DNA of 60,000 bases from Strigamia acuminata (taxonomy: Eukaryota > Arthropoda > Chilopoda > Geophilomorpha > Linotaeniidae): assembly GCA_949358305.1 (NCBI GenBank), contig OX442317.1:1490001-1550000 (forward strand), given 5' to 3'. Below the pieces are notes generated by a model. It did not search any database. It worked only from the letters and a program-made list of their open reading frames with translations, and was not told where the DNA came from. The translations under genes were made by a program, and so were the position numbers. Below, piece by piece: positions 6,995 through 57,682 of the stretch; the stretch's first letter is position 1; each line of letters starts with the position of its first letter.

Positions 6995-7780
6995 TCAACA
7001 ATTCTCATCGTCAGTAACATGTAATTGTTCTAAAATGATAGATGCGTCGTCAGGATTGATGACATTGATATTATACACGTGGCCAACATGCATATTATTA
7101 GCACTGCCAACATTTGTCACGTTTTTAGCGCCATCAGTCGGCATCGGCATACCGCCCCCGTCGCTCATTTGACTCGATCTCCTCCTCTCCAGCAATTCGA
7201 TGGCCAGCCGTTCCCTCGTCTCCTCCTCCCGCAACTTTAACTCCTTCTCTTCGATCTGTTCCCTCTGCACCCGTCTCTTCCTCACCACGTCGTTAAACAT
7301 CGACTTGATCCGAAACGCGTCTTGGTTCTTCACGAACAACTTGAATCCCGTCACTCCCCGCAATCCGCTCGGCGTCAGCGCGACGTATTCGGCTTTCGTG
7401 TAGACCGGGATCAAACTGAGAGATTTATCTTCGATGAACCGCGTTAATAAATCGCTGCGATGTCGCAGACACATTTTGTCCTTGCCGAAGTTGTTGCTGA
7501 TGTAGAGGAAGACGTAGGTGCTTCGTTGCACCATTTCTTCGATGCGGTCGAAGTAGTCGCTTATTTTGCACATTTGGAAGTCGCATTCGACCACGCCGGA
7601 CACTTTGTATTTGGCGCAGAAGTCGTCGCGGAATTGATTCGCCACTTCTTGGTCTTCATCGCAGTTGATGATGCAGAAATCGTACTGGCCCGTCAACCAA
7701 TAACTTTTGGTTAGTTCTACTTTTTCGTCTACGTGGCGTTTTAGTTCGTCGGGGAGGGTTCGGTAGACACTTTCGGCCAT
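6995..7780 (-). CDS. TIR-domain adaptor, TICAM/TRIF-like, with C-terminal RHIM-like segment
   Basis: A 261-residue protein in one coding exon. Residues about 32-165 form a TIR-like domain: box-1-like YDFCIINCDED opens it, and YVFLYISNNFGKD followed by MCLRHRSDLLTRF resembles the TICAM (TRIF/TRAM) type more than the TLR or MyD88 type, as I remember them. There is no signal peptide, membrane segment, LRR or death domain, so it should be a cytosolic adaptor. Residues about 183-220 are a charged Arg/Glu coiled coil. The C terminus has an Asn/Val/Gly-rich segment with NNMHVGHVYNINV, similar in spacing to RHIM or insect cRHIM amyloid motifs (V-x-V-G-x-x-N). TRIF also has a RHIM after its TIR domain. 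A CAACAG acceptor just upstream of the ATG at 7780 suggests an intron in the 5' UTR. TIR assignment is fairly firm, TICAM subfamily moderate, RHIM tentative. Confidence 0.75.
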   Translation of the reverse strand: MAESVYRTLPDELKRHVDEKVELTKSYWLTGQYDFCIINCDEDQEVANQFRDDFCAKYKVSGVVECDFQMCKISDYFDRIEEMVQRSTYVFLYISNNFGKDKMCLRHRSDLLTRFIEDKSLSLIPVYTKAEYVALTPSGLRGVTGFKLFVKNQDAFRIKSMFNDVVRKRRVQREQIEEKELKLREEETRERLAIELLERRRSSQMSDGGGMPMPTDGAKNVTNVGSANNMHVGHVYNINVINPDDASIILEQLHVTDDENC

Positions 7781-9647
7781 TGTTTACACCTGTTGAAAAC
7801 AAATACGTGTTAGTTTTGTCATGTTTTTTGTTTAATATTACCGGATTTCGCTCACTTTAAGGCATTATAATTGTTATGTCATTTCTGGGTGTGATTTTTC
7901 ATTCTCGTTGATTTGGAGTGAGCTTTTGTTTTTCCCCTTCGAAATTGATGTGTCCGATTCGTGTTTGTGGTTATCAATCAGTCGTGATTAGTTTGGAAAA
8001 AACGCTCACCACCACACATCGTTCATCGGGTTATCTATCGATGGCAAGTTTATGTTCGTTGAATATTGGAACGGAAGTGTGGGATTTTTAGGTTTTGAGT
8101 TTGGCCTGACATCTGTTGGTAATTCGTGAAAACTCGCCTTTTTATGCGCACAAATCGAAACTTTTAGCGCCGTTAGTTACAAATAAAGAATCTATTAATA
8201 AAAATGAAATCGTATTCATAATTTTATTTTAATTTAAATTACTATATTACTCATCAAAGTGACATCAGCAGATGCAAAAATTTCAAAAGAATAACATAAT
8301 TCATAAATGAAAAGAATAGGAACACAAAAACGCCACAGACTCCACAAAAACTCCTTTAAATTGTACAACGTCTTACCAATTGGTTCCAAAAAGCTGTTTT
8401 TAAAAAAAGAAAAATTGATGAGCAATTTTTTGTCAAATACTCAATTTGACAATTGATGCAATCACCTGCTGTTCATTGTTTATTTCAGAATAGATTAGAA
8501 GAGGAAAAATACAAAAATTGTAAAATCCGCTACCAGGCTGAAGTTGGCACCACATTCACAAATCCCAATTTTTTTTTAACAACGGATTTCAATGGTTTTT
8601 ACACGAAAAGATAAAGGACTTTCTCCTAAACAAACCATGAAGTGCACAAGTCTCTACTTCTCTTAGTTTTCGAGCAGCAAGCATTTGAATATGGCACAAA
8701 AAAGACTTGTACTGTACTAAATTTCCAAATCTGGTGCCACAACTTCAAACCCCAATATCTCAACAACCTGATCACGGATTTTTTTATTTAAAAAACCAAA
8801 CGAGGACCTTCTCCTCTACAAACTCTAAAAGACAGAACACTCTACCCCTCTTGGTTTTCGAGCGGCGAACTTCAGCCTGGTAAATCTGCTCGTAATTTCA
8901 CTTTCTACGGTGCTCAATGTGTCATTGAACCAAAACTTTGTGAGAAGTATCGAAAGAATCATACCGGTTTTACATTATACATGAGAGAATTTTGCCTTGC
9001 AATTAAAATATTATTTTAAAATATTATTTTGATGAAATTATTTGGCATAATTGCTTCAAACCGATTTTCATGACAACTGTCAACCTGGTCAGAAGAGAAG
9101 ATCAATAAATGACGAATTAATTGATTTTTAAATTTTAAATTTTATTTTTTATACACAAACTTACTGTCGCAGTGCTGTACACTATACAATCATTCTTCCA
9201 AAATAAAAAATAAACAACAAAAATTCAGATTTCTTCTAAAGACACAGAAATTATTTACATAAAAAAAAAATTAAATAATTAAATAATAAAAAAGAGAATG
9301 TAGTTTCCATTCTATGAATGACATTAAGGCACGTTCTAAAACTGCGAATTCCCAACAACCAAAGAATGCCGAGCATTTAATCTGGCGTGATGGCATCGCA
9401 GAAACGACGAGACGACACCGAAACGACATCCAAATCTTGTAAAAGGGAGCAAATTCCTCACACGGGTGAGCAATGTCAAACATAAATAATAAAACAACGA
9501 CGAAAGCGCGAAATTATTGCCGACATCAAAATCTAAACATCTAATTGGGCGCTTTTACACTCGCAAAATGACACCTCACGACTCACTCACCGACTATGGA
9601 AGACTTGAAAAATAACAAAATAACAAAAAAAATCTTACAAAATGAAT
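7781..9647. other. Intergenic region between TIR gene and DAPK 3' end
   Basis: Contains the 5' UTR intron and promoter of the TIR gene near 7780-8200, a MITE at 8533-8880, and AT-rich sequence that should include the DAPK 3' UTR (9100-9647). No other gene was recognised. Confidence 0.6.
8533..8880. mobile_element. MITE with 13-bp terminal inverted repeats and TA target duplication
   Basis: The sequence starts CCAGGCTGAAGTT and ends AACTTCAGCCTGG, exact inverted repeats, flanked on both sides by TA (8531-8532 and 8881-8882). The length is 348 bp and no transposase is encoded. Inside, two related blocks (around 8590-8690 and 8780-8865) share a pattern of 'ctcctaaacaaac/ctcctctacaaac' followed by 'gttttcgagc', so the element contains an internal imperfect direct repeat. 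The TA duplication suggests a Tc1/mariner-type transposase mobilised it. Confidence 0.7.
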
Positions 9648-27910
<18,263 letters not shown>

Positions 27911-28127: not shown

Positions 28128-29971
28128 TTATTTCACAGATTTCAATTCAATTTCGAATTGCAAAGTGGAGTTTGATGGAATGGGACCGGAAGCCGCCTTG
28201 CCGTATGCCTGATGAGCCGGAATGACCAATTTTCGTTTTCCGCCGACTTTCATCCCTTCGATGCCCAGATCCAATCCCTTGATCACTTCTCCGCCTCCCA
28301 CTCGGAATCCGAGCGGACTTCCCTTCTTGGACGAGTCGAAAACCTTATTATTCAACAACCGTCCGACATAGGCAATTTGCACCTGCAAAAATTCAAATCA
28401 AAAACGTAAATCAAACACAATTTTTGCGCCTCGCAACATCGAATAACATTTATTCTTCATTTATAGCGTGACAATTTAACCATAAAAAAGCACCAGTTGT
28501 ACATTACAATTTATATACAATCTGTAACGAAAAAATCATATAAAAAAAACAATAAAAAAAAAAAAGTTTAAATTTTTAATTTTTTTTTTCATGCATCTTT
28601 TCGCAGTTTCGGCTAAACGCGCACGAATTAAAATGAGAATAAACGCTTAAAACTTCTTTACAAATTTGCCACGTTTGGCCACGGGTCCGTTTCCAACGAC
28701 CGCGTCTTCGACCGAGGTTCCACCAACGATTTTACGGACGTTTTTCGGTGTCGCTGCTTTGTCCGCCATCTTTTTCGGCGTGGCTGCGGTTCCGGCCACT
28801 TTCTTGGGCGTCGGTGCCGTTTCGGCTTTTTTCAGCGCATCCTAACAAGAATTTTTGGATTAAAATTGATCGGCGTTTCGATTTTAATTTTCATGTTACC
28901 GAAGGCGTTTTTGGCTGTTCGGCATCGATCGAGACGTCTCCTCCGCCGCCCAACGACTTCTTCTTCCTCTTCCTCCTCTTTTTAGCGCTTGCCGTCAATC
29001 CTTCGGAGTTCGGGGTCTCCGGGCCGTTAGCTGAGGATTGTTTGGCATTCTGAGGAGTGTTTGGCGTTTGTTTAGCGTTTTTCGCATTTTTTGGCGACTG
29101 GACATTTTTCCCGCCGTTTTTAATCTTTTCAACAGCTTTGTTGGAAACTGCTTTCTTCTTATTAAACTGCAAAGCTTTCAAGTTGTCGTCGCTTTCTTCC
29201 TCGTCATCTTCAACCAATTCCTTTAAAATGTACAAAAAGTTTAAAAAAATAAAAAATTAAATTTTATTATTCGGTTAATACTTCATCGCTCAAGTCATTA
29301 AAATCGACAATTTTCGTTTTCTTGTTGTTTTTCAGTTGAATAGCGGCAACTTTCCGCTTCAAACTCGCTTTAATATCTGAAAAATGCAAAAAAAAATCGT
29401 GAAAAACAGAAAAATATTTTTTTTAAAAAGCCGATTTTACCATCTCCAGATTCAATTTCTTCGTCGCTCTCTTCGGAATCGCTATCATCTTCGTCGATAT
29501 AATCCTCGTCATCGTCATACTCTTCTTTGTCGTGCAAAAACCCGGTCAAATGCACAGTCCCTGGCCCGCTGATGAAGAAAGTGACTTCCTCGCCCTCCAT
29601 GAAATTCAAATCCAAATGTTGCTGCACGTTGGTTCCGTGGCGAAGGGAACACAAAAGAAATTCCGATTTGTTGTGCTCGATCATGACCGAAACATTTTTC
29701 TTCTTTTCGCTTTCTGCGATCAAAGAAAAATCGCAAAATTAAAACCAAAAGTCCCAAAATCGAAAAATCCAACACGTGGCTTCAACGGAAATTTTTTCTT
29801 TGTATACCTTGCGTGTTAAATTCTAATGCTGCCATCGATACGTGGAAGGCATCGTCGACTTTCTGCGAATAACGTTTTCCATTCTCCAGCGTAATTCCTA
29901 AAGAAAGAGAAGAAGCACGTGGTCAGTTTTTTGTTTTTTACACATTCACGTGCAAATTTACCCCAAAACAT
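28128..29971 (-). CDS. Nucleoplasmin-like FKBP peptidyl-prolyl isomerase (FKBP39/FKBP46-like)
   Basis: A nuclear histone chaperone and prolyl isomerase of the NPL-FKBP type. Seven exons: 29962-29971, 29808-29897, 29441-29713, 29282-29376, 28900-29220, 28662-28841 and 28128-28382; they sum to 1224 nt (407 residues) with all phases agreeing. The N terminus MFWG, then ITLENGKRYSQKV and AFHVSMAALEF, is the nucleoplasmin-like fold. An acidic tract (EEYDDDEDYIDEDD, then more Asp/Glu/Ser) follows, then a Lys-rich region with several TPKK and KRRKRKKK motifs likely to act as nuclear localisation signals. The last exon is the FKBP domain: YVGRL, FDSS, EVIKGLDLG, AYGKAASG and LQFEIEL. Leu replaces the pocket tryptophan of FKBP12, as expected in this family. 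The 10-bp first coding exon is supported by phase and by the family start. Confidence 0.9.
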
Positions 29972-30776: not shown

Positions 30777-33700
30777 ATGCCTCCGACGACAGTTCACGTC
30801 TTAGGATCAGAACAATCGCAAAAAGCGATGCGGAAACTGCAACGAGCCAGAAACAGGAAAGTACAACTTATTGTCAAAGCTACTTTATCAGAAACCAATC
30901 AGATGCCACCTTTCGTAATCGTTTTAAAAAAGTTTACGAAAAAAGCAAAAATAATTTGTTTCTTCTTATTCCTGATACTAATGATAAATTTGTCAGCATG
31001 CGTTTATCAGATCGCTGATCGAATTGCGCACTACTTAAGCGAGCCCACAGCAGTAGATGCGCACATAGTGGAAACATCTCGTGGTGACTTTCCACGGCTC
31101 TTTTTGTACCCGACGATTACAAAAGAACTCTCGACGTACATCGATAAAATTGCTATGAAACATAATATTAGAATTGGCAATTTCTACTGCGAAAACGTTC
31201 TTGCAGATCCACGGACTCTTCGCGACGTCGACTTTTACACAGTCATTGAATTGTGGTCGACGCAGAGTTACATACATGACGCCTACGTACATTTGGTAAA
31301 TTTTTCAAACTCGATATTTATATTGAGACAAACCGTAATTTTGAATTTTCGCTTCAAAGGGTAAATCTCGAAAAAACCTCACGATTAAAACTCACGATTC
31401 TATCGGTCAACCGGCTAAACAAGTGTTTGCAGGTGTGTTGAAATTGAAACAAATGAAATGAACCCTTAATAAAAGTTTCTAATTTAGATTACCCCGTTCC
31501 ATTACACAATCGCAACTACAAAGTAATAATTAAACTTAATGTACCAAAGAGGTGCAGTTACATTCGAGTAATAAGAATACAAAATTGTGAGATTTGTTGC
31601 CGTACTAAATGCACAATTGACTTGCAGGTATTTTTAACTATGACCCCAGAACCATTTTATGAACATCCTGCGAGTGCAGTTGTTCTCAGAGCTGATGGGA
31701 AAACAGAAATCACCGTGGTCACGCAAAAAGTAATGAAACATCCCGGCTTGTTTTGGTGTTTATTTACTTAAAACCTCTATGTATTCTACTCAGTACGACT
31801 TAATCAACACAAAAAAGAATCCTTGCAATAACAATATGGAAAACTGTTTAAGAAATTGTGTCATGAAATTGTGTCTCAATCGATTCAAACTTAATTGCAG
31901 GTAATTATTTTAAATGCCTAAGTAAATAGATACACAGAATCTACGCTTCATATGTAAAAACGATTTATAAAGGGCTTTAAATGATTTATAAATTTATAAA
32001 TAAGATACACTCTGATCTTTTTCACTTTTTAGTTATCCGCTTTATGAAGCCAGACTATTGCCTAAATGCCATAAAAATAGGGATCCACTGATAGTCTACC
32101 ATAGATTACGTCAGATTTTGCTTTCTGTGAATTTTCTAGAATACTGTGGCTGTCCCAATTTATGCGAACTGGCGCAAGTTGTTGCGCACTATGATACCGA
32201 TGAACATAAATCAGCCGTTCATAATGATAAAGCTCGTATAATAGTATCTGCTGAGAGCCATTTTGTGCGTACTCTGAAAGAACACGTGGCCTACGATGTC
32301 ATCTCTCTGTTTTGTGACATTGGAGGAAACATGGGATTTTATTTTGGAATGTCCTGTTTAGCCATTGTCGAAATCGGTGTGTTCGGATTTCGCAAATTTA
32401 CTAAGACGATAAGAAAACTGGCGAAAGGAGATGAAACCTTCAACGAGGTTTTCAAGGCAAAAACCGAGCAAACGGTCGAAGAGACACTGTTGAAGCTGAA
32501 ACAAACAGGAAACAAGAGGTCATTTTTACGTGGGTCTACTCTCATATCGGCAATATTACTGTTGGTGTCGATTTACCAGATTTACGTGAGAATCGGCACC
32601 TATTTTGATTACCCACTTCTGACAACCGTTGTTTTGGCACGAAGTAATGTCATTTACTTCCCAAAGATTTTACAATGTCGAGATAGCATGGAGGTAACCA
32701 ACGCGAAGAAATACTTGGCAATTAAAATGAATCAAACTTGCGACAATTGCCATCTTGTTGATTTACTCGACAAACCGTCCAAGTACGCGAGTAATCCTCT
32801 TGCATTGTGGAACGCATCTTCCACTATTGAAGAACATCGTTATATGCAGGAAAGAGAGACTGTAAGTTTTGCATTTTTGTATTTTCTTTTCTGTACAAAT
32901 ATAAATGCACACAGATCGATGCTCTTCGAACCAAGTTTGGCAATTTATCATCAATTCCAACCCCTTTTGGAATGTGCACGGCATTTACAATGGGTAAGTT
33001 GACAAATTCACAGCCCGTGGTATTCGAATCACCTTTTACTTTAATAGGACTGAGAAAGTATCATCCGAATAACAACTACATGTTTATAAATTACGAAATT
33101 CAATTAGTACATGGCTCCATGTGTGGTTGGCACGAAGTAAAACTTAATTTTGCTTTGTAGTAACTTTCAATCCTGTACAATATGTCGCTCTATTTTGCAG
33201 AATTTTATCCTGACTCAAAATGAATTTGTACATTTTAAACAACTCTTACACCTGAAAAGCGGCTACTACAATGTTATCGCTTTTAACCATCAAAAAGTGC
33301 GTGCCAAACTGTACAATAATAAGTAATAATAATAATACAAATAAAATAAAACTAATTTCGCTGTATTGTAAATTTCGCACAGATTGTACGAATCAACACT
33401 CCAAAGAGTTCTTGCAGGCCCCAACACCAAGTTGAGCAATGTGAACAAAACTGCTTTAACAAGAAACTGGACACCCAAAACTTTACCTGCTTGTGTGTCG
33501 TGACATTTAAAATAAACAAAAACAAATGAAATAAATTTAATTTTTAACACAGGTTACCATTTATGAAGTCAAATCAGTCGTTACAACTCTGCAACTCCTC
33601 AAAATCGGCAAAAGTTACCAAAACGAAATATTTGGAAATTGAATTCCTGATGAATCCACGCAAAGAGTGCGGCTGTCATCTGGCATGTGAAGAACAGATA

Positions 33701-33895
33701 TACATTCCTTCTATAATTTCCGAAATGAGAAGCTTAGTTGAAGCTTCCGACATTTTTCAAATCTCTACTAACATCTGCGAAGAATTGAGACAAGAGAAAA
33801 TGCTGACAGTGATCAAATTATTCTGTGACATTGGCTCTATTATTGGTATAATGGTCGGTTTTTCCATATTCTCTATTCCTCAATTTTTAACCTAA
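30777..33895 (+). CDS. Tandem-fused double DEG/ENaC channel (two subunits in one polypeptide)
   Basis: DEG/ENaC proteins form amiloride-sensitive trimeric cation channels in the plasma membrane. Ten exons: 30777-31295, 31360-31432, 31488-31729, 31794-31900, 32033-32861, 32915-32993, 33048-33136, 33201-33296, 33383-33492, 33553-33895; total 2487 nt, 828 residues, all phases matching. Unit A has TM1 at about 59-79 (CFFLFLILMINLSACVYQI), a short extracellular part with CGCPNLC, and TM2 at about 404-428 with LFCDIGGNMGFYFGMS. Unit B has a second TM1 at about 481-503 (LISAILLLVSIYQIYVRIG), CGCHLAC, and TM2 at about 800-825 with LFCDIGSIIGIMVGFS. Both TM2 carry the G-x-S filter (GMS, GFS). TM2-A and TM1-B sit in the same uninterrupted 829-bp exon, so the fusion is read directly. 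The C-terminal tail after TM2-B is only a few residues. AATAAA lies near 34177. Confidence 0.85.
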
Positions 33896-38245: not shown

Positions 38246-38319
38246 TTAGAAATAAATCTCAAATCTGAACTTGTGATCTCTCAATAAGATAACCCAAATC
38301 GTAGAATTATCGAAAGAAA

Positions 38320-41300
38320 ATGTCAGACAAAGACGAACAATCCACGTCTGAAACCGAGCAGAGAATGCCCGAGAAGGGAAAAAGGACCTCCGACTACCAC
38401 CTAAGGTCGGATGGTCCCGTCCCTGAAATGTCCGCAAAGGCGAAAGCCCGAGCGAATAAAAGGAGAGCGAAGGCGCAGAAAGAGGAGCAAGCTGCATCGC
38501 TCGCGGCCCTAGACGGGCCAGAGCGAGAGCGGGTTCCCTTGAAGATGCAACCCTTCGAAGATACCGATCCGGAAGCCCAAGAAAATCGAGAAGAAATTCG
38601 CGACGTATCACCGGGACGGGTATCGATATTAATGACCGAGGAGACGAATGAAGCTCCGAGAGAAACGGTCGCGGTCGGCACAAACCCATCACCACCAACG
38701 GCTCAGACGTCCGTAGAGCAAACCCCACGGAAAAACGACGGCGGGACCCCGATAACCCCCCGAGTTACGGCGAGTCCTGCAGTTGTTTCCGTCGAAGTAT
38801 CTCACCTAATTCGGTTGACGCAGCAAGCTGCCCAACTAAAAGCGATGATAGACATCCCAGTAGGAACATCAGTCTGGGAATCAATTACTCTACTCACGGA
38901 CGCTATCTGCGCGGCACAAGCCCCGACGCCGGTCGCAAGACCAGCAGCGGAGATGCCCATGCCCCAGGTAACGCCCAGTGACACCGGAGGTTTCGCGCCA
39001 GATCCCAACCGAGCACTTCACCAATCCAGAGAGAAGGCCCGCGAAGAAGCCAGACAAGAAGCGACTAATCGCCAGCGGAGACTGAGCGCAGAGCGGCGAG
39101 AACTCTGGAAGGAAGAGGAAGAAAGGGAACAACGCGAGAGAAGAACCACCGAGAGAACAGAGAAACTGGTCCAAAAAATGAGGGAAGAACGAGAAGCTAA
39201 AATTCGAAAAGAATGGAACGCCACAGTAGAAGGGCGACATCGAGAAGCTCAAGAGTACGAGGACCAATTTCAAGCGCTCGTAGCTCAAAGAAAAGCAGAA
39301 AAGCTACAAATGTTGCGAGAAGAAGCCATTTTACAACATCAAAAATGGGAAGAACGACATCGCGAGAGGTTAAGAGAAGAGGAAGCCAGAAAAGAAAAAG
39401 AACAGTTCCTAAAAGAGAAAGAGGAATGGGACCGAGTCAGATGGACCGAAGAGTACAAAGCAAAGAAACAAGCCATAATAGATGAGCAAAAAAGATGGGA
39501 AGCCGAAAACTGGGAGAAAGAAACAGAAAGGTTCCAAAAAGAGTACGAACAAGGCGTCTCGGACAGGAAGAAAAGGGAAGAAAACCCGAAACGGAAGTCG
39601 GAACCCCCAAGCGGCTCTGATACCGACACAGGAGAAGATGCAACAAAGCCGGCAAAAACGGCGAAAAGGGGGAAATCTCAAAAGAGAGACGGGTCGGTCC
39701 CAAAAACAAAAGACCGTCACCCCTCAAAAAGATCCGAGACGGGAGCAGCCATCGACGCGTTACTCGAAAAGAAAAACGCAAATAAAAACCGGGAACGCCC
39801 CGAAAGCGAAAAAAACAGCTGGCATTCTTTTTACGAGAACAACGACGGAGAGGAGCCGCCGCCATCCGGGGGCTCGAAACAGAAGAAGGCTGGCGGAGAG
39901 AACCCCCCGAGAGGACCGAGGTTTCACCCCCAAGGAGATCCCTCCGAGCCCTCCGATTCGTCGGACGACGACCATCCGAGTCGACCGTCTACAGGGAGGA
40001 GTCAAGAAGGCAGCGATGGGCACCGGTCGAACCGGCCGAATGCTTCAGACCGCTCCTCCCGGAGCTCCAACCCTCGTTCAGAGGAAGGGAACTTTCAGGA
40101 CTCATCTGGCCGACATTACACGATGTCTGAGCTAGGCCGAGCCCTGCTGAACTCTTTCAGAAGAGAAGGAATCGATCTAGGCCATCCAGGCGACGAACAT
40201 AATCGCGCTGGAGAGAGAGTCAAGCGCAAATATGGCGTACGAAACGAACCAAGCAGTGAAGCCACGGGTAACATCCGCTGGCAACACTATATTCAAACGC
40301 GATTTGACGGTTCGTGGAAGGCCGGAGACCGCTTCCTGGACGAAGTAATGCGTATCAAGAAAGCGACAAAAGCCACCGTCGCCGACATGCTAACCCACGG
40401 GCTGGTGGAGCTAACCACGGGGTCGGCTCGAGAATGGTATCAGGGACTGAAAAACCCAACCTGGGACGATTTTCTCGTCCGTTTCGACCTCCGATACGGC
40501 GAGACTCCAGACGAGATCAGTAACAAGTTACGTGGTCTACGACAAGCCCCAGGAGAAACATTAGCCGACTACGACGCCCGAGCGAAACTCCTGTTTGCAA
40601 GAGCGCCGTATGAAATAAACCCCGCTGGTTTTACGATGATCTTTTACGGGGGATTATCGGCCCACTCGCAAAGAATTCTGCTAGACATGCGCGCACCCCG
40701 CACCGGCGATTACCAAGATGTCAGTAACTATCTTCTAACAAACACGTTAGAAATAGAACAGCGGTATTACGCCACTTTGCCCCCGGAGGAAGCTGACGCA
40801 CACGAGAAATGGTTGCAAACGAGCGCCGAGCGTCACAAGACCTCAGAGAAATTAATGAGGCCAAGTGAATATTTGAGCGGTATAATGAGTCTCACCGAAG
40901 CATCCTTCGGACGAATGCTGACGCCTAAGGCAGGCAGTATCCTTCCAGCCAACCCAATAGCTGCCCCAAAAAAGGCACCGGCAGCAACGGCGATGCAGGT
41001 GACCTCGACGGACCCCACCCAGATGGAGAAAGTCGAAGAGACAACACCTCTCGCCACAGCTAAAGAAGAGGAGCCAGCATCGAGCGACGAGGAAGCCCTA
41101 AACGAGCACCTCGAAAACTTATCGACGGGATGCGACGATCAAGGTCCCTATTTGCACCATGCACACCGGGCCTTGGCAATCACACAATTCAGAGCACACG
41201 TGCAGGCAACCAAAGCGAGAGGAGCATTGGGAGGAAAAAGACGATTCCCGACGCCCTTCGTCCCGAAAAAACCGGGATTCACTCCCACAGGGGATAAAAG

Positions 41301-41460
41301 TAACATCAAATGTTACAGCTGTGGAGAATACGGCCACTACTCAGATAAATGTGAGAAAACCGTCAAAGAAAAAGACATCATGCAAACCATGATAAAAATG
41401 ATGATGGAGTTAAAAACTGATCTAGCAAAAAACTTCCGAGCGCAGGCGTCGCCGAAATAA
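38320..41460 (+). CDS. gag: Ty3 element Gag
   Basis: 1046 residues, unusually long for Gag. Residues about 230-480 are an extremely charged Glu/Arg/Lys region predicted to form a long coiled coil, followed by a Ser/Gly/Arg-rich disordered part (about 430-620). The capsid-like Retrotrans_gag region lies at about 690-860 (WYQGLKNPTWDDFLVRF, then RQAPGETLADYDARAKLLF). One CCHC zinc knuckle, CYSCGEYGHYSDKC, sits near residue 997. The N-terminal 230 residues have no recognised domain. The ATG at 38320 follows AAAGAAA and is the first in frame. The stop at 41458-41460 lies 25 bp after a -1 frameshift heptamer. Confidence 0.93.
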   Translation: MSDKDEQSTSETEQRMPEKGKRTSDYHLRSDGPVPEMSAKAKARANKRRAKAQKEEQAASLAALDGPERERVPLKMQPFEDTDPEAQENREEIRDVSPGRVSILMTEETNEAPRETVAVGTNPSPPTAQTSVEQTPRKNDGGTPITPRVTASPAVVSVEVSHLIRLTQQAAQLKAMIDIPVGTSVWESITLLTDAICAAQAPTPVARPAAEMPMPQVTPSDTGGFAPDPNRALHQSREKAREEARQEATNRQRRLSAERRELWKEEEEREQRERRTTERTEKLVQKMREEREAKIRKEWNATVEGRHREAQEYEDQFQALVAQRKAEKLQMLREEAILQHQKWEERHRERLREEEARKEKEQFLKEKEEWDRVRWTEEYKAKKQAIIDEQKRWEAENWEKETERFQKEYEQGVSDRKKREENPKRKSEPPSGSDTDTGEDATKPAKTAKRGKSQKRDGSVPKTKDRHPSKRSETGAAIDALLEKKNANKNRERPESEKNSWHSFYENNDGEEPPPSGGSKQKKAGGENPPRGPRFHPQGDPSEPSDSSDDDHPSRPSTGRSQEGSDGHRSNRPNASDRSSRSSNPRSEEGNFQDSSGRHYTMSELGRALLNSFRREGIDLGHPGDEHNRAGERVKRKYGVRNEPSSEATGNIRWQHYIQTRFDGSWKAGDRFLDEVMRIKKATKATVADMLTHGLVELTTGSAREWYQGLKNPTWDDFLVRFDLRYGETPDEISNKLRGLRQAPGETLADYDARAKLLFARAPYEINPAGFTMIFYGGLSAHSQRILLDMRAPRTGDYQDVSNYLLTNTLEIEQRYYATLPPEEADAHEKWLQTSAERHKTSEKLMRPSEYLSGIMSLTEASFGRMLTPKAGSILPANPIAAPKKAPAATAMQVTSTDPTQMEKVEETTPLATAKEEEPASSDEEALNEHLENLSTGCDDQGPYLHHAHRALAITQFRAHVQATKARGALGGKRRFPTPFVPKKPGFTPTGDKSNIKCYSCGEYGHYSDKCEKTVKEKDIMQTMIKMMMELKTDLAKNFRAQASPK
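41427..41433 (+). promoter_or_regulatory. Predicted -1 ribosomal frameshift slippery site between gag and pol
   Basis: A AAA AAC in the gag reading frame (codons AAA at 41428 and AAC at 41431) is the classic strong -1 slippery heptamer. The pol frame is exactly -1 relative to gag and is open from 41421 onward, and the gag stop follows at 41458. A downstream structure was not checked. Confidence 0.75.
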
Positions 41461-44400
41461 ATTCAGCTTCGTCTGCGCCAGCCGCGGAAATTAAAAAGAA
41501 GAAATATCACACTGGACCCGCAGGTCATGCCTTGGCAGAGGCACAGATCAAAGACCGCATACAGACCGTTCCGAAGAAGGAGGAAAAAGTGACGTTAACG
41601 AGTATGCAAGTGAGAACGAAACCGGAGGTCGACATGGATTGGACGGACCTTCCGTTCAATCTGGAGGTTGAGCCCCAGACATTACGCGTATTTCACTGCA
41701 ATGTCACGAAAACACATTGCGAAACTCTGTGTATGCTGCCAGTGGAGATAGAAAACCAAAAATTGTTCGGTCTACTGGATTCAGGAGCGGACCGTTCATT
41801 CATATCCGAGGATATAGTAAAAGACTTGGATATTGGAAAAAAGGTGGCACAAGTGAACGCGAACGTAGAATTGCTCACCGCCAACGGCTACGTCAAGCCG
41901 AAGGGCGTAGTTCGCATCATGATCGACTGGAAGGGGGGGAACCTGTCCCACCCCTTCATAGTCTTGCCATCCCACGACAAAGTATTCCTCCTAGGGATGG
42001 ATATCATGGCGAAACTGAAAATTCAGCCAAACCCGATAACCCGTTCATGGAACTGGATAAGTCCCGAGGGAGAACGGCCAGTCCCCGTGGTCCCCCAAAA
42101 ATTACTGGACGAAGCCAGGGACAAAGAGGAATACGGAAGAGGATTGCGAAAATTCGTCCAAGATTACGATTTCGCAGCCTTCACTCTGGAATTACAAAGG
42201 AGTAACGTCGTGGACACCCTGGTCGAGGAGGCAGCACTGCGTGTCAACGAGGCATCGCTACTAAGGCGAGTGCTTCGAAAACATGAAAGAATTCTGACCA
42301 AGACACCTGGTCGAACGACGGAGGCAACCCACGAGATAGTCTTAACCACAGACAAGCCGATTCGAGTGCCTTACAAGGGGATGAACCCCCAGAAAAGAGA
42401 CATTGTGACGCAAATGTGCCAAGACATGCTCGACAAGGGCATAGTAACGCAAGCCCTGGGCGAATACGCCATGCGGATCGTCCTGGTAATGCGTCCAGGT
42501 TCGGAACCTCGACTATGCATCGATTATCGCCCCCTGAACGCGATAACGGTTATAGACCCGATTCAGATGCCGTCTATAGACTCGATCCTCCGGGAACTGA
42601 GCCCATTTAAGTGGGTAACCACCATGGACCTATCAAAGGGGTATTGGCAGGTGGAACTCAAACCCGAAGACAAACTGAAAACAGCTTTCTACTCCCCGAT
42701 AGGAAGACTAATGTTCAACGTGATGCCGTTCGGGCTTGTAAATGCCCCGAGCACGTTCCAGAAATTGATCGAAAGCGTGTTGGGAGATATGCTTCACGAC
42801 TTCGTGTGGGCGTATCTCGACGACATCATAATAACGTCGGACACATTCGAAGAGCATATAGACCACATCGACAGAGTGGTCTCTCGCCTGGCCAAGGCGG
42901 GACTCCACATCCATCCAGGGAAGAGCAAGTTTTGCAGAAAAGAGCTTGCCTTCCTGGGATACCGAATAGGAGTCGAGGGAATCGCGATTGACCCCGAAAA
43001 GGTTAAAGCAATAAACGGATTCCCCGCCCCCGAAGATATAAAAGGTGTCCAGAGATTTATGGGCATGGTCAATTTCTTCGGCCGACTGCTCTCTGGTCTG
43101 GCTGAGGTGGCCGCGCCTATAACGGATCTCTTACGAACGGATAAAGAGTTTGAGTGGACGGTCCAGTGCGAGGCCGCATTTAGCACGATCAAGCAAATGC
43201 TGGCTGACGTCGAAAAGATGCCATTGCCGGACCTAAACCGACCGTTCGTGTTGCACACCGACGCGAGTAAAATCGGACTGGGTGCAGCCCTTCTGCAGAC
43301 CCACGTATACAACGGAATCTCGCAGGAAGTACCCTGTATGTTTATAAGCAGAAAAATACAGGGCGCGGAGAAAAATTACACGGCAACGGAACTAGAATGC
43401 CTAGCCGTAATTTGGGCAGTGCGGAAGTTTCGCGACTATCTGGAGTACACGAACTTCGAGGTTCAGACAGATCACCAGGCACTAAGCTGGTTGATGAAAC
43501 TCAAAGAACCCTCCGGCCGACTCGCACGATGGCAACTGGAATTAATGGCGTGCGATATAACAATTACGTACCGCCCCGGGAAGTACAATCATGTGGCCGA
43601 CGCCCTCTCAAGAGCCCCAGCCTCTGACCCCCAAGGTCCAGACGACGACGGCGAGGATGACACCCACCTCTTGTACTGCCCGACTCCACGGAGAATATGG
43701 CGTTTGCGAAAGGCGAACGAGCTACCAGTGATGGAGCCCGAAGATAGAACGTTTTGTGGTTTTTGGACTCGAACATACCAGCCAGCTGGGACGAACGATT
43801 CAACATCCGAAATTCAATCTCCGCCCCCCGGAGAAACCCACAAAACCCCACTACGCGCCTTCACAGCAAAAATTGAAGAAAAAACGCAATATGCTCCACC
43901 CACGAGACGTGAGTTCATCGAACACCAGGCAGCCGACGCAAAATGTCAAATTATAACACAATACTTGCTAAACGGCGAATTTCCGGAAGGGATGACAAAC
44001 CCCCACCGCCGAAAACAGTTCGTCAAGGAAGCAACAAGCTACCTCATAGATGATGAACTCCTGGTAAAATACCACCCGACGTTTCAAGATGACCTCAGCG
44101 GAGCGGGAAACTCGGTTAAAGTGGTCGTGCCGACATCGCTGCACACCCGACTGTTGTGGCTGATGCACGGACACCCGCTCGCCAGCCATTCTGGCGTGGC
44201 GAGGACCCTTTATCGAGTAAAACAACTTTTCTTCTGGCCGGGCGCGCGGCAAAAGATAACGAAATTTATCCGACACTGCCCCCGGTGCCAAGCGTGCAGA
44301 CCGCGAGATAAAGTGGCCAGAAACGCCATGTCTCTCGGACCCTACGCACCATTTGACTGCCTAAGCATAGACTTGATGGGCCCCAAGCCCACAACGGGAA

Positions 44401-45563
44401 ACAAGAACATGTATATTCTCGTAATTATGGATGTGGCCACCCGATGGCCGGAGCTGTACGCCCTCGCGAAGCCCTCGGCTGAAAACATAGTCGAGTGCCT
44501 TTACGACGTGGCAATGCGATTTGGGTTTCCCAGAAAACTCATTTCGGATAACGGCCCCCAATTCCGATCAAGAATATATAAGGACTTCTGTAGAAAATTT
44601 AAAATGGATACATCAAACACCTCCACGTATAATCCTCAGACAAACCCAGTCGAGAGATTAAATAAAGATATAAAATATGCGCTGACAGTATTCACCGATA
44701 TTCACAATCGATGGGACGAATACCTGCGAGAAATCGCTTTCAGCATTCGCTCAACCGTGTCAAGAACACGCGAATTCTCACCGGCGTACCTCAACTTCGC
44801 CCGCGAATTAAGGATGCCATGGGACCCACGCGTTGCCGAAGCTGTTAACGTATTAGACCCATCGAGCCCACATGAGTACGTGTGCCGGTTGGAACAGACT
44901 ATATCCGACACATACCAGCATATGATGGCGCATATTTTCAACATGAGAGAGAGAATCGCAGATAAAGAAGGCGATCTCGCTTTCGCGAACTTTAAAGTGA
45001 ATGATCTAGTGTGGAAGGAGGCACACACGTTGTCCAATGCAGCGAGGGGCATCGCCGCCGGTTTAGCCGACAAGAGGGACGGTCCCTATGTAATTGTGGC
45101 CGAACACGGCGGCAACGCATACCAACTGCGCCGCTTAGAAGACAACAAAAATTTTCAGTCGATACATGGCCGAGATTTAAGGCCATATCTGCCAGAGTTT
45201 CCCCAAGAAATCTGGCTGGAAGGTCAGACACACAGCGGCCAAGGGGGCACCGTGGTCGACACGTTCCAAAAAACGAATGAAGCTGAAAATATAACGGAGG
45301 ACGAGGACGAGTTCTTCGACGCCGAATCCCCAGCCGACGAGGCTCCAACTCAGCCGGAGCAAGCAATTTCGGAGAGGGAGGAAGCAGAAGAATGTACTTC
45401 TGAAATGGAAAATAAAAAAATAAATAATGAGAAAAATGCCAACACATCGGAGATGAACGAGCAAGTAGAGTCACGATCTACGAGCACGTCGAAAATCAAC
45501 CTTCGACCACGACGAAGCGATAATCCGTTCATTCGGGACGGCAAAGTCGTGGGGAAGAACTAA
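41434..45563 (+). CDS. pol: Ty3 element Pol (protease, RT, RNase H, integrase)
   Basis: Open from the frameshift site to 45563; there is no ATG near the beginning, which supports expression by frameshift. Positions below are counted from codon 41532. Protease LLDSGADRSFI at about 80; reverse transcriptase with the catalytic YLDD at about 428; RNase H with HTDASKIGLGAAL at about 575; integrase zinc finger H-x-H...CPRCQAC at about 875-925; then the DDE core with IDLMGP at about 945, SDNGPQF at about 1005 and a Glu in NPVERLNKD at about 1040. A chromo-like or GPY/F-type tail follows. The C terminus is acidic then Arg-rich. All catalytic residues are present. Confidence 0.95.
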
Positions 45564-47430: not shown

Positions 47431-50400
47431 TCAAGGCCGGAAGATTCTCGAGATGAGTGAACGAAGTTTTTCCGAGCCGAGCCACTTTGTAAATATATCG
47501 GCGACGTTCAGATCGCCGGGCACTTTCCGAAGTTCAAACTGTCCCGCCGTGTACCACTCCCGAAGCCAATGGAACTTGACGCGGATGTGTTTCGTCTTGC
47601 TGTTCTCGATATCGTTCGCGGTGAATTGGATAGCAGCAAGCGCGTCGGAGTAGATAACGGGACGAGAAATCGGATCTAACATCGGACATTCGGAGTAAAC
47701 ATGTCGGAGCCAATAAAATTCTTTAACTGCATCAACAAGAGCGAGGAACTCGGCTTCCATTGTTGAGCAAGCCACGGTGGTCTGTTTTCGGCAGGTCCAT
47801 CCAATTGGCGTTTGTCCGATGTAGCAAATGAAGCCTCCGAAACTAAGCGATGTAGCGGTATCCGATGCCCACGATGCGTCTGTGTATCCCCACAGGTGTC
47901 CTGATCCACATCCCGATAATTCGATACAATAATCAATGGTGTTCGAGACATACTGAAGTACCTGGAGTAGGGCTTTGATGTGTGCCTGAGTATAACACGT
48001 GTTGAACTGCGACAGGTAAATCACGGAAAATAAGATATCGGGACGTGTTCGCGACGCTAAAAACAATAGCGATCCAATGAGCGATCTATACGGGAAATCG
48101 ATCAAGTTCTCGGTCGGTCCCCGAGTGAGCGTTGTTCCCGGAGTAACAGGGACCTTGACGAGGTTATTTGCGACGGTTCCGAACCTTTTAACGATCTTCG
48201 AGATGTACATCCGCTGGCTAATGAAAGTCTTGCCAGCCTCTCGGATAAATTCAACGCCGAGCAATTTCGTGATGGGACCCAAGTTGACGATTTGAAACTT
48301 GGTGCTGATCAAAACGATGAGTCGATCGAGGACGGTGTCGTTAGCGTAGAAAAGAACGATGTCGTCCACGTAGACCAGCATCAACGCTGAAGTCCCAAAA
48401 GAATAAACACAATTGCATCCGGGCAGTCTTCGAAATCCGAGCGCTCGAAGAGTTTCGTTTAGCTTCTCGAACCATTGCCTTCCGGATTGATGGAGGCCGT
48501 AGAGGGATTTTATCAGAAGCCAAACGTTGTTCGGGTGTGTGCAAGTCGCACCTGCCGGAATCCGCATATATACCTTGTGCTCGAGCTCGCCATAAAGGTA
48601 GGCACACTTTACGTCGAGGTGTGCGTCCTTCCATCCGCGGAGAATGACAAGCAAGCAAAAGAACATCCGGATGAGAACAAAGTTCACGACGGGGCTGAAA
48701 ACCTCATCGTAGTCGACGCCGAGAGTTTGTCGGAAACCTTGAGCGACAAGGCGGGCACGGTAACGAGTAACTTTGCCGGTGGCGTCGGACTTCAACTTGA
48801 AAATCCATTTACATCCGAGGATCGTTGTATCAGGCGGTTTCGGTACTTCAACGTACACCTCACGCTCCTTGAAAGTTCCGAGTTCTTCATCGATCGCTTC
48901 GCGCCATTTTGGCGCATCATGAAATTTTGGAATTTCGGCGAATGAAGCGGGTTCCGTCCGACACAGGTGAGCCGCATGTCTGGCAGGGATCGAAGGCGTA
49001 GTATATTCAATACTGCCAAAGAAAAAGAGTTCCGGGTTATATTCGAGATGATTAAATTGACAATATTTCTCGATGTCCCCGCGTGAACGTAGTCGCACAT
49101 CCGGTTCCGGGAAATAATATACATCGGTGTCAATCTTTCCGGGTCTCTGAACCTTGCGGAGATGTTCTTCACGTCTCCAACGTGCGCAGTGCGAATCTCC
49201 TCCGACATATCTCCACATGAATGCGGTTCGGTGTGCAGATGTAGGTGCCACTTCAGTTCCTTCAGTTCCTTGAAGCGGAGCCGGAGACATAGGTGCAGCA
49301 TCGAAAACGGGTATTGTATGTTGGAGAACGGAAGTACCCGCTCTTCTCCGTGTCGTCACAAATCTGCTTGGGGAACTAGGTGGAGATAACGGGGGTGATG
49401 TTTGAGGTGAAGTTTGCGGTGACATGTGAGGGGAAGTGTAGTTAGATATTGGCACGAGAGAAACTTCATCGATATCATCAATGTCACGATCCGTGTCATC
49501 ACCTAGATTGCTGTCGGAACTCGGCAATCTCAAAGCACATGCTTCTTGAAACTGACGTTCCGGTGTCTGGAATTGTGCAGATGCTGCCGAGCTCGAACTC
49601 TCTTCTAATGGCGGCATCTCAGACTCTTCGTCTGATGATGAGTATTCATGGTCCGAGTCCGATCCTTTTGGCCAATCGAGATACTGAATGTTCTCGTCGA
49701 ATGTGACAGTCGACTGCGGGATATCTTGAACGTTCGGACTGTGGTCAACATGCGAGTACGGTATGTACTGCCGTAGATTTCCGTTTCCGTTTCCATTTCG
49801 AAGAGTTCGACGATAGGATTGCTTTTCATCAATTCGGACATGAGTTGATTCTGTGATTTTATCGTCAAGTGGGTTCCAGATTCGATATCCCCGTGTGCCG
49901 ACAGCGTATCCAACAATGTAACCTTCCCAGGCACGCATCTGAAGTTTCTTGCGACCTGGGGTAGTAAAATGTACCCAACATTTCGATCCTATCTTGCGCA
50001 GATGTCGTAGTGAAAGGGCACGCTGTCGCCACAAGATGTAAGGGATCTGATTGTTCAAACGAGAATGTGGAGATCGGTTCTTTATATAAGCGAATGTGAC
50101 TGCGATTTCCGCCCACAAGTCGTTCGGAAGTTTCGTTTCGCTTAAAATCGATCTCACGTTGTCGGCCATTGTTCTGTTGATCCGCTCCGCAGTGCCGTTC
50201 ATAGCGGGCGAGTTTGGGTTGGTGCGTTGACCTTCGATGCCCTTCTCTCGGAGATAATTGAGGAATTCGTTAGACATGAACTCCCCGCCGCGGTCAGAAC
50301 GAATGGCTTTGACTCGAGTATTGGCGACGCGTTCAATCCGAGCGACAAAATCCTTAAAGACACCAAAAACTTGGGATTTTTGGGCAATCGGTGTAATCCA

Positions 50401-52392
50401 GCAATATCTGGTCGCGTCGTCGATGATCGTGAAGACAAATCGAGCTCCACCAATTGAAGTCGTTTCCGCTGGCCCCCAGACGTCCATGTGCAAGAGGTCC
50501 AGTGCCTTGGTGGTAATCGGATTTGGATCGGGCTTATGCGAAGCGCGGATGGATTTTGCAATACGACAGTCGTTGCACGCCAAATCCTGGCGTACTTCCG
50601 CAGGCTCCATGCCATAAACCTGATCATTGGCTGCCAGAAGACGCATGGCGTTGGTATGAAGGTGGCCAAGTCGGCTGTGCCATAAGCCGGTTGCATCTTT
50701 CTTTGCCGTCGGATTAGCAACAGTCTCCTTTTTGGGTGGAGAAGGATTTTTGGCAGCGGGAGATGTCGGGATTGACTGTGAGACGTCAGCATAGGATGGG
50801 ACGGGAGATGGTAGCTGGACTTGCGGAGGATTAGGATTTGGTAACGGATTGGTAGGAGTTGGGGTCGGAATTTGGTTCACGACGTTAGAAGGTGACAACT
50901 CGATACGAAAATCCGTCATAAACTCCGTTTTATTTTTCGATTTCTGCTTCGGTTTCGGAATGGGCTCGAAATCAACCTCTGAAGTGACTAAAGTCTTGAC
51001 AGGAACTGTCGGAGCCGGTTGATGAGACGTTGAAACCGTTGTCGAAATAGTCGGAGTAGCGCAAAGTCCGTCCACGTAATACAATCCGCCTTTCTCTTTC
51101 GCTCGGAGAACTGAAGAGCGAATGTCTGTTTGGTAAACATTGATCTCCCCGTTGAAAATATGAATGTGAAACTTATTTCTGTCGATTTTGCTCACGGAGA
51201 CTAGATTCGCCTCAAAGTTCGGTGCAAACAAGACATTATGTAAAGTTACGAAACAGTCACAATTGTCAATCGAGGTCTGAAGTCGTACATTGCCCCGTCC
51301 GGTCACTTTGGACTTGCCCTGTCCAAGCTCGATGTCGAATGGCGTAATGTGTTCAAAGTTCGTAAACCACGATTGGATGTGAGAGACGTGGTCGGTGGCC
51401 CCGCAGTCGACGATCCACTCATTTGACTGCATAAAATGTGCGATGGGGCGCTCGATTACTTGGGGACAATTGACAAAGAAGTTCGCATCTCGACGTGGCC
51501 TGGAACTGCCTCGCGGTTTGGAATCGTCCTGCTTCGCCGAATTTTTATTTCGACGACGGCTCTTGCTGCGTGATGAGCGTTGAACTTGCGCAGCCGGGCG
51601 ACTCTGACCATCGCGTTTCTGATGAGGGCATTTGTTTGCATAATGCCCTAATTCCTGGCAATTAAAACATCGGACAGTGGAAATGTCACGAGGCGGTCGA
51701 GACGGGTTTCGTTGTCGAGACTGATCAGTGTTGGAAGCATGCGCCGAGGATTGTTGGAAATTGTCCGTACGCATCGATTTCAGGCGCATGTATTCCGAAA
51801 GGAGCTGTTCGGCCACTTCCTTCGGTTTGAACTTGTCATCCGGCCAATGATATATGGCAAACGAAACTTGAGAATACTCTGGAGGTAAGCGTCGAAGGTA
51901 TTGGTATGCATGATGTATATCTGACACTTCTTCTTTGACCGCTTTAAGTTGGCTGACGTGGTAATCTACACGGCCAATAAAATCGGCCATTTCCTCGTTC
52001 GGTTTGAGGCTGAGTTCGAGGAACTCCCAGCGCATCGCGGCTTGGCGCGCGCGAGAACTGGGCGCGTAGATCTGGGCCAACTTGTCCCAAGATTCTCTCG
52101 GTGTATCACAGTTATCAAGGGCGGATTTCTTCGCCTCTGAGACAAAACAGTATATTAATCCGAGAGCCTTGTCCTTTTTGCGTTGAAATTTCAGTTTTTC
52201 TTTTTCCGATGCGGTTTTGAGATAATCGATTTCGCCGTCCTCCGTGACGTGGTGCCACAGGCCTTCAGCTTTGAGGAGCATTTTCATGCTCCTCTGCCAC
52301 GAATCATAGTTCCCCACGGCGAGCACGGGAACTTTGCCGCTGGTCGGATCGCCCACTTTCTGCATGATAGCAGCGAAGACGAGACCAAACAC
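47431..52392 (-). CDS. gag-pol: Copia Gag-Pol polyprotein
   Basis: One uninterrupted ORF of 1653 codons. Order: Gag with a UBN2-like region (LKPNEEMADFIGRVDYHV), one zinc knuckle CFNCQELGHYANKC at about 243; protease VDCGATDHVSH at about 327, with Cys instead of the usual Ser in the DSG motif; integrase zinc finger WHSRLGHLH...CNDC at about 570-610, DDE core with HMDVWGP (about 634), RSDRGGEF and NGTAERINR; reverse transcriptase KWIFKLK, DVKCAYLYGEL and the catalytic YVDD at about 1342; RNase H TDASWASD at about 1502, MEAEFLAL and TKHIRVKFH. Translation may begin at the second Met (52365), since the first nine residues look non-family. Nothing is truncated. Confidence 0.95.
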   Translation of the reverse strand: MFGLVFAAIMQKVGDPTSGKVPVLAVGNYDSWQRSMKMLLKAEGLWHHVTEDGEIDYLKTASEKEKLKFQRKKDKALGLIYCFVSEAKKSALDNCDTPRESWDKLAQIYAPSSRARQAAMRWEFLELSLKPNEEMADFIGRVDYHVSQLKAVKEEVSDIHHAYQYLRRLPPEYSQVSFAIYHWPDDKFKPKEVAEQLLSEYMRLKSMRTDNFQQSSAHASNTDQSRQRNPSRPPRDISTVRCFNCQELGHYANKCPHQKRDGQSRPAAQVQRSSRSKSRRRNKNSAKQDDSKPRGSSRPRRDANFFVNCPQVIERPIAHFMQSNEWIVDCGATDHVSHIQSWFTNFEHITPFDIELGQGKSKVTGRGNVRLQTSIDNCDCFVTLHNVLFAPNFEANLVSVSKIDRNKFHIHIFNGEINVYQTDIRSSVLRAKEKGGLYYVDGLCATPTISTTVSTSHQPAPTVPVKTLVTSEVDFEPIPKPKQKSKNKTEFMTDFRIELSPSNVVNQIPTPTPTNPLPNPNPPQVQLPSPVPSYADVSQSIPTSPAAKNPSPPKKETVANPTAKKDATGLWHSRLGHLHTNAMRLLAANDQVYGMEPAEVRQDLACNDCRIAKSIRASHKPDPNPITTKALDLLHMDVWGPAETTSIGGARFVFTIIDDATRYCWITPIAQKSQVFGVFKDFVARIERVANTRVKAIRSDRGGEFMSNEFLNYLREKGIEGQRTNPNSPAMNGTAERINRTMADNVRSILSETKLPNDLWAEIAVTFAYIKNRSPHSRLNNQIPYILWRQRALSLRHLRKIGSKCWVHFTTPGRKKLQMRAWEGYIVGYAVGTRGYRIWNPLDDKITESTHVRIDEKQSYRRTLRNGNGNGNLRQYIPYSHVDHSPNVQDIPQSTVTFDENIQYLDWPKGSDSDHEYSSSDEESEMPPLEESSSSAASAQFQTPERQFQEACALRLPSSDSNLGDDTDRDIDDIDEVSLVPISNYTSPHMSPQTSPQTSPPLSPPSSPSRFVTTRRRAGTSVLQHTIPVFDAAPMSPAPLQGTEGTEVAPTSAHRTAFMWRYVGGDSHCARWRREEHLRKVQRPGKIDTDVYYFPEPDVRLRSRGDIEKYCQFNHLEYNPELFFFGSIEYTTPSIPARHAAHLCRTEPASFAEIPKFHDAPKWREAIDEELGTFKEREVYVEVPKPPDTTILGCKWIFKLKSDATGKVTRYRARLVAQGFRQTLGVDYDEVFSPVVNFVLIRMFFCLLVILRGWKDAHLDVKCAYLYGELEHKVYMRIPAGATCTHPNNVWLLIKSLYGLHQSGRQWFEKLNETLRALGFRRLPGCNCVYSFGTSALMLVYVDDIVLFYANDTVLDRLIVLISTKFQIVNLGPITKLLGVEFIREAGKTFISQRMYISKIVKRFGTVANNLVKVPVTPGTTLTRGPTENLIDFPYRSLIGSLLFLASRTRPDILFSVIYLSQFNTCYTQAHIKALLQVLQYVSNTIDYCIELSGCGSGHLWGYTDASWASDTATSLSFGGFICYIGQTPIGWTCRKQTTVACSTMEAEFLALVDAVKEFYWLRHVYSECPMLDPISRPVIYSDALAAIQFTANDIENSKTKHIRVKFHWLREWYTAGQFELRKVPGDLNVADIFTKWLGSEKLRSLISRIFRP

Positions 52393-53246
52393 GAAAAATC
52401 ACAGAAGCGACGAGAGTGGTATTGGCGCACTAGATTTGAAACACTTAAACGTTCGATGCACAACACAAACACAGCACTGATCCCGCGGTGATCGAAGCGG
52501 AATACCGAAAAGGGGCGATAACTTCTGAAGTTATCAAATAACCCCCGATAGCCAGTCTGAGAGGGTCCGTTCGACTGCCTGGAGCCGCGGGAAACCTCAC
52601 TTGTACCACGACAAGCACTATCGGGGAATACAACGACGCTTACTCGGATTCGAGTGAAGGGCGCCGAGGATACTAAATGTCCCACACCAAAATCCCCCTT
52701 AATTCTAACAAAATAATTACGACTCTGAAAAATAAATAAGGCGAAATGGAGAATCTGTGTGGGATCGTCACCACACCGTCGTGTAAAAAACACGGGTGAA
52801 TAAATGCTTTTCTCGAAAAAGCAAGTGAAAAACGCAGCTCGGATTTCCAAAACCCGAACTCTTCTCGAATTAACGAGGAAAAAATCAATAAATCCGTCGA
52901 AAATAATCAGATCGCCGCTACTGTAGACACTCCGGGGTGAATACAGCGGGTTTTGCCCGTTTCTTGATGAAAACACGCCTCGTCGGCGGTGTCGAGTTGA
53001 ATCTCGAAGAAAATCCACGTCGAATCTGAAAATAACAAAAATTTGCCAGAAAATTCGCGTGACCCGCGGAATTCTCGGCAAAATTAATTGTAGAACGTCG
53101 GTGGAACGTCTGGAAGACGTTTTCGAGACGAAAAACTGCAAAATCGGCGTCAAAATCTGAAAATAGATCAAATTATCGCCGAAAAAAACGCGAAAATTCG
53201 CGAAATTAAGCGATAAATTAGTGGAATGCGTGCTGCAGAGGAGCAG

Positions 53247-57371: not shown

Positions 57372-57682
57372 GGACAGTGTCGTGTACCGACATTGTTTGC
57401 TACATAAATTGCTATACATTATTGTATTTAATTGTACCACATTTAACAATTACTTGGTTGCCAGGTTGACAAACCTGACAACCAAGAGTTCTTTTATTCT
57501 GGAATAATAAATACTCAGTCTGACTCGAAATCTGCTTTGTGTAACATCTTCCTAATGCTGTGCCCAAGTGCATGGCATTCCAACTTGGCCCTAAATTATC
57601 GAGCCTAATTCTACAAGTGAATTACACCACAGATTTCACAGACAGCCCTTGCTTATACGGCGTAAGTTAGTTATAGTTACAA
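57372..57682. other. Unique flank downstream of Ty3, with hairpin
   Basis: Contains a strong hairpin at 57453-57486 (CTTGGTTGCCAGGTT / AACCTGACAACCAAG, one mismatch) followed by AATAAATACTC. It could be the rest of an older LTR into which the Ty3 element inserted; this is only a guess. Confidence 0.4.

Follow-up and report, generated by a model that had tools for sequence, protein, structure and literature searches.

A two-unit DEG/ENaC gene in the centipede Strigamia acuminata and its bridge-exon relatives

DEG/ENaC channels have been studied as trimers, and the order of their subunits has so far been imposed by engineering. The gene described here lies in a 60,000-nucleotide stretch of the Strigamia acuminata genome (C5:1490001-1550000; hereafter the window) and raises the questions of whether two complete DEG/ENaC units are encoded in one chain, and how such a chain could take part in a trimeric channel. 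Gene structure, paralogues in the same genome, selection on the exon joining the two units and the nearest known relatives were analysed.

Structure of the two-unit gene

The coding region (30777-33895, forward strand) consists of ten exons, which join in frame to 828 residues followed by a stop codon, and all nine introns have GT-AG borders. Exon 1 (30777-31295) encodes the N-terminus, the first membrane segment (M1) of unit A (30951-31007) and the start of ectodomain A, and ends in phase 0. Ectodomain A continues through exon 2 (31360-31432, end phase 1), exon 3 (31488-31729, end phase 0) and exon 4 (31794-31900), the latter ending in phase 2 as exon 9 does. Exon 5 (32033-32861), the bridge exon, comprises the end of ectodomain A, the second membrane segment (M2) of unit A (32295-32390, residues 402-433, with the filter GMS at 32346-32354), an inter-unit linker predicted to be cytosolic (32391-32540, residues 434-483), M1 of unit B (32541-32597, residues 484-502) and the start of ectodomain B. 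Exons 6 to 9 (32915-32993, 33048-33136, 33201-33296 and 33383-33492) encode further parts of ectodomain B, which is completed in exon 10 (33553-33895) together with M2 of unit B; the M2 motif DIGSIIGIMVGFS with the filter GFS is located at 33827-33865, and the stop follows nine residues past it. An end of exon 9 at 33496 was rejected because it broke the frame, which is restored at 33492. Since exon 3 may conceal a short intron, the length of the protein is to be read as 828 residues give or take some. A spliced aligner gave identical exons; as its query was the same protein, this is a check of the boundaries only.

Ten exons closing in frame to 828 residues with four membrane segments and two G-x-S filters had been proposed in a first-pass annotation of the locus, and the exon joins and the hydropathy profile bear this out. 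The same holds for the proposal that the 829-bp exon 5 runs uninterrupted from M2 across the linker into M1: it lies within a 328-codon open frame (32016-33002), for which the probability by chance is 4.5e-11 at the local base composition, and the corresponding chance for the M2-to-M1 stretch of 99 codons to stay open is 7.6e-4.

Compared with the Pfam ASC profile (PF00858), the first half of the protein scored 45.8 bits and the second 39.6 bits, both above the curated cut-off of 23.6 bits, and the two halves align with each other at 28% identity across about 150 residues (E 1e-10). Four hydrophobic segments were found in the hydropathy profile, enclosing ectodomains of about 320 (A) and 290 (B) residues. 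The filters are GMS at residues 419-421 in unit A and GFS at residues 817-819 in unit B, and the variants GFS, GLS, GVS, GMS and GIS occur among the paralogues. Both ectodomains had been thought to contain few cysteines; the counts of 15 in residues 78-400 and 14 in residues 503-795 contradict this. Both units thus agree with DEG/ENaC subunits in Pfam score, membrane segments, filter and cysteines. An HG motif precedes M1 in DEG/ENaC proteins, though not in all members, and inspection by eye found none ahead of either M1 of the fused protein. The gene departs from the family pattern of one unit per chain in that two units share one open frame, and this is its novelty rather than a ground for exclusion from the family.

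Relatives of the bridge exon in the genome

The genome searched comprised 237,517,015 bases in 157 contigs. An initial ASC search, in which the best 93 of 2095 candidates were scored, yielded M2-linker-M1 frames at eight additional loci (L020-L023, L027, L028, L032 and L033). Three bridge exons were used as queries: exon 5 of the window gave 140 rows (best of 1175 candidates), 138 of them stop-free, the exon of L022 gave 126 (best of 1560; 102 stop-free) and that of L021 gave 139 (best of 986; 119 stop-free). All but one of these 405 rows cover the M2 motif through the end of M1. After merging, at least 367 loci with an M2-linker-M1 frame were counted, at least 324 of them stop-free and the window included; both figures are lower bounds, as the best candidates were scored in each search, and recent duplicates are counted separately. 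More than one query recovered 37 of the 367 loci. The 367 loci are located on C1 (195), C6 (95), C8 (27), C3 (26), C4 (9), C9 (5), C11 (3), C5 (3) and small contigs (4). The fused gene is accordingly one of hundreds and not a lone oddity.

Tandem, near-identical bridge copies, which represent recent duplications, were observed on C1 at 4.7-4.8 Mb and on C6 at 1.77-1.80 Mb (for example L045 and L046, 99%). Duplicated assembly was rejected as the source of the copies, because the majority of the 140 matches to exon 5 of the window are only 34-45% identical. A nematode origin of the sequence was rejected: the genome contains no exact copy of the SL1 leader, and the opening 500 bases of C1 are occupied by TTAGG-type repeats, which were not seen at two other contig ends.

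That one reading frame holds two complete DEG/ENaC units, the central claim of the first-pass annotation, is supported by the sequence and by the recurrence of the same bridge at hundreds of paralogous loci, which disfavours a local prediction error. An artefact of the gene model was rejected in view of the 324 stop-free bridge loci together with the dN/dS values of the bridge exons given below. A stop is contained in 43 of the 367 bridges, so some of the family is decaying or mis-framed. Judged by these frames, this centipede likely carries hundreds of ready-paired channels.

Spliced models with both units and four membrane segments were obtained for the window gene and for L036, L020, L021 and L027, whereas those of L022, L023, L028, L038, L040, L043 and L045 are partial and hold pieces of one or the other unit; the homology-guided spliced aligner is rough at low identity, and several models (e.g. 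L039 and L041) end in junk. L036, the tandem paralogue, begins just outside the window at C5:1551167 and is 78% identical to the window gene over exon 5. In all six genes with a visible end of unit B a stop follows 9-31 residues past the motif, so they have two units and not three. The six paralogue units submitted to Pfam all passed the ASC cut-off. Frames that end after one M2, apparently of single-unit genes, are present in the same genome.

The linker of the window gene has 49-50 residues and a net charge of about +7. Among 20 bridge loci, linkers could be measured in 18 and have 32-66 residues and net charges of +4 to +16; L045 and L046 fell below the hydropathy threshold. The positive charge in these 18 loci agrees with the positive-inside rule for a putative cytosolic location.

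Selection was assessed by dN/dS (Nei-Gojobori) in four paralogue pairs, with small counts and no significance test. For the bridge exon, values of 0.55 (window/L036), 0.38 (L027/L033) and 0.29 (L028/L032) were obtained, and for the linker only, 0.49, 0.39 and 0.23, respectively; the pair L045/L046 has zero synonymous changes and is uninformative. By these estimates the linker is under purifying selection in the three informative pairs. Between the window (32034-32861) and L036, dS amounts to 0.48 ahead of M2 and to 0.036 after M1, and dN/dS beyond M1 is 1.49 at this dS of 0.036. The drop suggests that unit B was recently copied between the two neighbours, probably by gene conversion, and the statistics of this pair depend partly on that putative event.

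Origin of the join and nearest known systems

The exon plan of the two units points to how they may have been joined. In an alignment of A with B, introns coincide at column 306 (phase 0) and at column 345 (phase 2), two further introns have equal phases and lie 4 and 11 columns apart, and B has one extra intron. The bridge exon shares its start phase (2) with exon 10 and its end phase (0) with exon 1. The common intron plan and these phases suggest that two neighbouring genes were joined, the terminal exon of one to the opening exon of the other: an ancestral head-to-tail pair would have lost the intervening stretch, whereby the final exon of A merged with the initial exon of B, and the joined A-B gene would then have multiplied. 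A tree was built from 42 C-terminal segments, with 6 of 16 decapod proteins included; its supports are moderate and its root serves for drawing only. One branch sets the A rows apart (77/75) and another the B rows (94/93). As these groupings span very different paralogues, the fusion is likely older than the expansion of the family. Genes of this genome that seem to have a single unit are placed near A, where the support of the group is moderate.

Among structures in the PDB, the family profile scored highest with BRTNaC1 (99.8 bits) and PDPNaC1 (98.7 bits), followed by ASIC2 (49.8 bits) and Pickpocket 26 (39 bits), and residues 492-825 of unit B were aligned to residues 69-407 of BRTNaC1, almost its full length. 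These nearest solved relatives are three-chain entries. PDPNaC1 is described as a proton-gated homotrimer in antennal neurons of the centipede Scolopendra and BRTNaC1 as a thermal (heat) receptor of the same Scolopendra species (PMC12714832). Like the fused gene, they are DEG/ENaC genes with multiple exons and come from the same class of animals; they differ from it in encoding a single unit per chain (BRTNaC1 431 residues, PDPNaC1 421 residues).

Concatemers in which ASIC subunits follow each other head to tail across a cytosolic linker, as in the A-B chain, have been engineered, and with linkers of 19 residues they assemble into functional trimers (PMC10329638). These constructs are made in the laboratory and contain three units with linkers of 19 residues, whereas the A-B chain is natural and has two units linked by 49 residues; a cytosolic link of 49 residues should thus be no hindrance to function. 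A search of the open literature, outside which most subscription papers lie, found only laboratory-built DEG/ENaC fusions and no natural one. This agrees with the earlier statement that no natural DEG/ENaC concatemer has been described, while three-unit predictions from decapods lie unremarked in databases.

A protein search with the 828-residue query gave one match (Homarus) among 3881 candidates, and the eight-row family alignment had no match at E 0.01 among 6915 candidate proteins. Searches of this type draw no more than 100 words from the first 500 query residues and are confined to a length band, and their outcome does not imply absence from other species, the sister species S. maritima included. 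In Homarus LOC121878297 and its relatives (P0001-P0016), three DEG/ENaC units per chain were found in 16 of 16 decapod proteins, the middle unit having a shortened ectodomain and no separate Pfam stretch reported. The decapod proteins share about 35-60% identity with each other and merely general ASC-level similarity with the window protein, and in the tree their units 1 and 3 are separated from the centipede units (93/87), none pairing with A or B. A crustacean origin of the window, which the Homarus match had suggested, was discarded because the similarity goes no further than this general level. They are like the A-B chain in their natural head-to-tail units with short linkers from M2 to the next M1, and unlike it in having three units with a short middle one instead of two. 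On the evidence of its sequence the decapod chain is possibly a natural single-chain trimer, which would make it a ready object for structure work.

Assembly, role and neighbourhood of the two-unit chain

The stoichiometry puzzle raised in the first-pass annotation is genuine, since chains of two units cannot add up to a trimer, and no result singles out an arrangement of two plus one. Channels formed by two fused pore units per chain exist in the two-pore-domain potassium channels; their fold is unrelated, and two chains of two units suit a four-fold pore, whereas two fails to divide three. The reading that we prefer, with a probability of about 0.6, is that a single A-B chain supplies, as a ready-made pair, two subunits of a trimeric cation channel and that the third comes from a different chain, probably a single-unit DEG/ENaC protein. 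Translation would yield both head-to-tail subunits in one chain; the basic linker would stay in the cytosol with both ectodomains facing outward, and the pairing would set which subunits adjoin. This arrangement is favoured because apparent single-unit frames exist in the genome and because B seems to have a specialised filter region, which reads DIGS or DIGN instead of DIGG. Weighed against the other assemblies considered, A-B plus one further subunit would have about even odds on these sequence features.

An unlikely alternative is that three A-B chains form two joined trimers, one of A and one of B units, side by side and connected through three linkers. Such a complex would make a partner gene unnecessary, linkers of 32-66 residues could bridge two adjacent channels, and the separate grouping of A and B units across very different paralogues looks as if each contacts its own kind. 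However, we know of no precedent for this arrangement, and a pore of B units only may fail to conduct, as their filter is less canonical. The simplest arithmetic for a two-unit chain would be a four-unit channel with one pore made by two A-B chains, and one study has argued for tetrameric ASIC1a at the cell surface (PMC4529235). We regard this as improbable, given that the closest relatives of solved structure are entries with three chains and that PDPNaC1 is described as a homotrimer (PMC12714832).

Slimmer still is the chance that the genomic frame is continuous but its two units are carried on separate mRNAs or cleaved apart, so that the working channel is an ordinary single-unit trimer. 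A long basic linker is what a protease site might look like; yet neither AATAAA nor ATTAAA was found on scanning the linker DNA (32364-32550), no pyrimidine-rich acceptor was found in 32301-32600, the frame is kept open at no fewer than 324 loci, and the linker appears to be under purifying selection in three pairs. That the fused copies are mostly a poreless, non-channel or decaying family kept through tandem duplication, as the stops in some bridges and several near-identical recent duplicates such as L045/L046 might suggest, is very improbable, as the filters, the cysteines and the M1-M2 pair of each unit are retained in copies of 20-45% identity and dN/dS is below 1.

If the preferred pairing of one A-B chain with a further subunit is true, a natural chain that fixes neighbours exists in hundreds of variants, from which stoichiometry, subunit order and asymmetric gating could be read through evolution. 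A sensory role of the fused family is probable by analogy, on the basis of its two nearest solved relatives, which are antennal centipede channels, and of its receptor-like size; if so, a large overlooked receptor repertoire would be identified in an eyeless animal. More tentatively, and at somewhat less than even odds, arthropods may have made pre-assembled chains for trimeric channels at least twice, as A-B pairs in a geophilomorph centipede (in hundreds, maybe among the largest of its sensory receptor families) and as three-in-one chains in decapods, with the A-B pairs acting as tuning receptors that dock on shared single-unit partners.

Geophilomorph centipedes are blind, and a study of S. 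maritima reports that lineage-specific duplicated genes of that species are enriched for sodium transport and taste and that its GR family is expanded; the words ENaC, degenerin and sodium channel are absent from its main text (PMC4244043). In the genome searched here, chemoreceptor profiles matched at one place for PF02949 (26 candidates), at two places for PF08395 (16 candidates) and at at least 94 places for PF00060 (best 150 of 239 candidates scored). As S. maritima reportedly has many GRs (PMC4244043), the PF08395 search must be blind to divergent GRs, and its count is unusable for concluding that GRs are scarce; neither the IR nor the GR tally thus lends weight to the preferred reading. 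Dense weak matches to PF00060, an apparent IR cluster, were observed on C10 at 3.5-7.8 Mb.

Within the window, a retroelement region (36500-58500) separates the fused gene from its tandem paralogue. It contains a Ty3/gypsy-type element with reverse transcriptase, RNase H and integrase frames at 38305-45563, flanked by direct repeats of 100% identity (300-nt copies) at 37405 and 56547. Inside these repeats lies a copia-type element on the minus strand (47431-52398), between identical repeats at 46702 and 53266, and a long array of an 11-bp repeat lies next to the retroelement at 57595-58500. Also on the minus strand, a death-domain frame (9648-10550; 48.9 bits) is located near a TIR-like frame (6995-7783; 23.5 bits against a cut-off of 28), which looks like an innate-immunity neighbourhood. 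Immediately upstream of the fused gene, the minus strand carries a nucleoplasmin-like (NPL) domain frame at 29370-29738.
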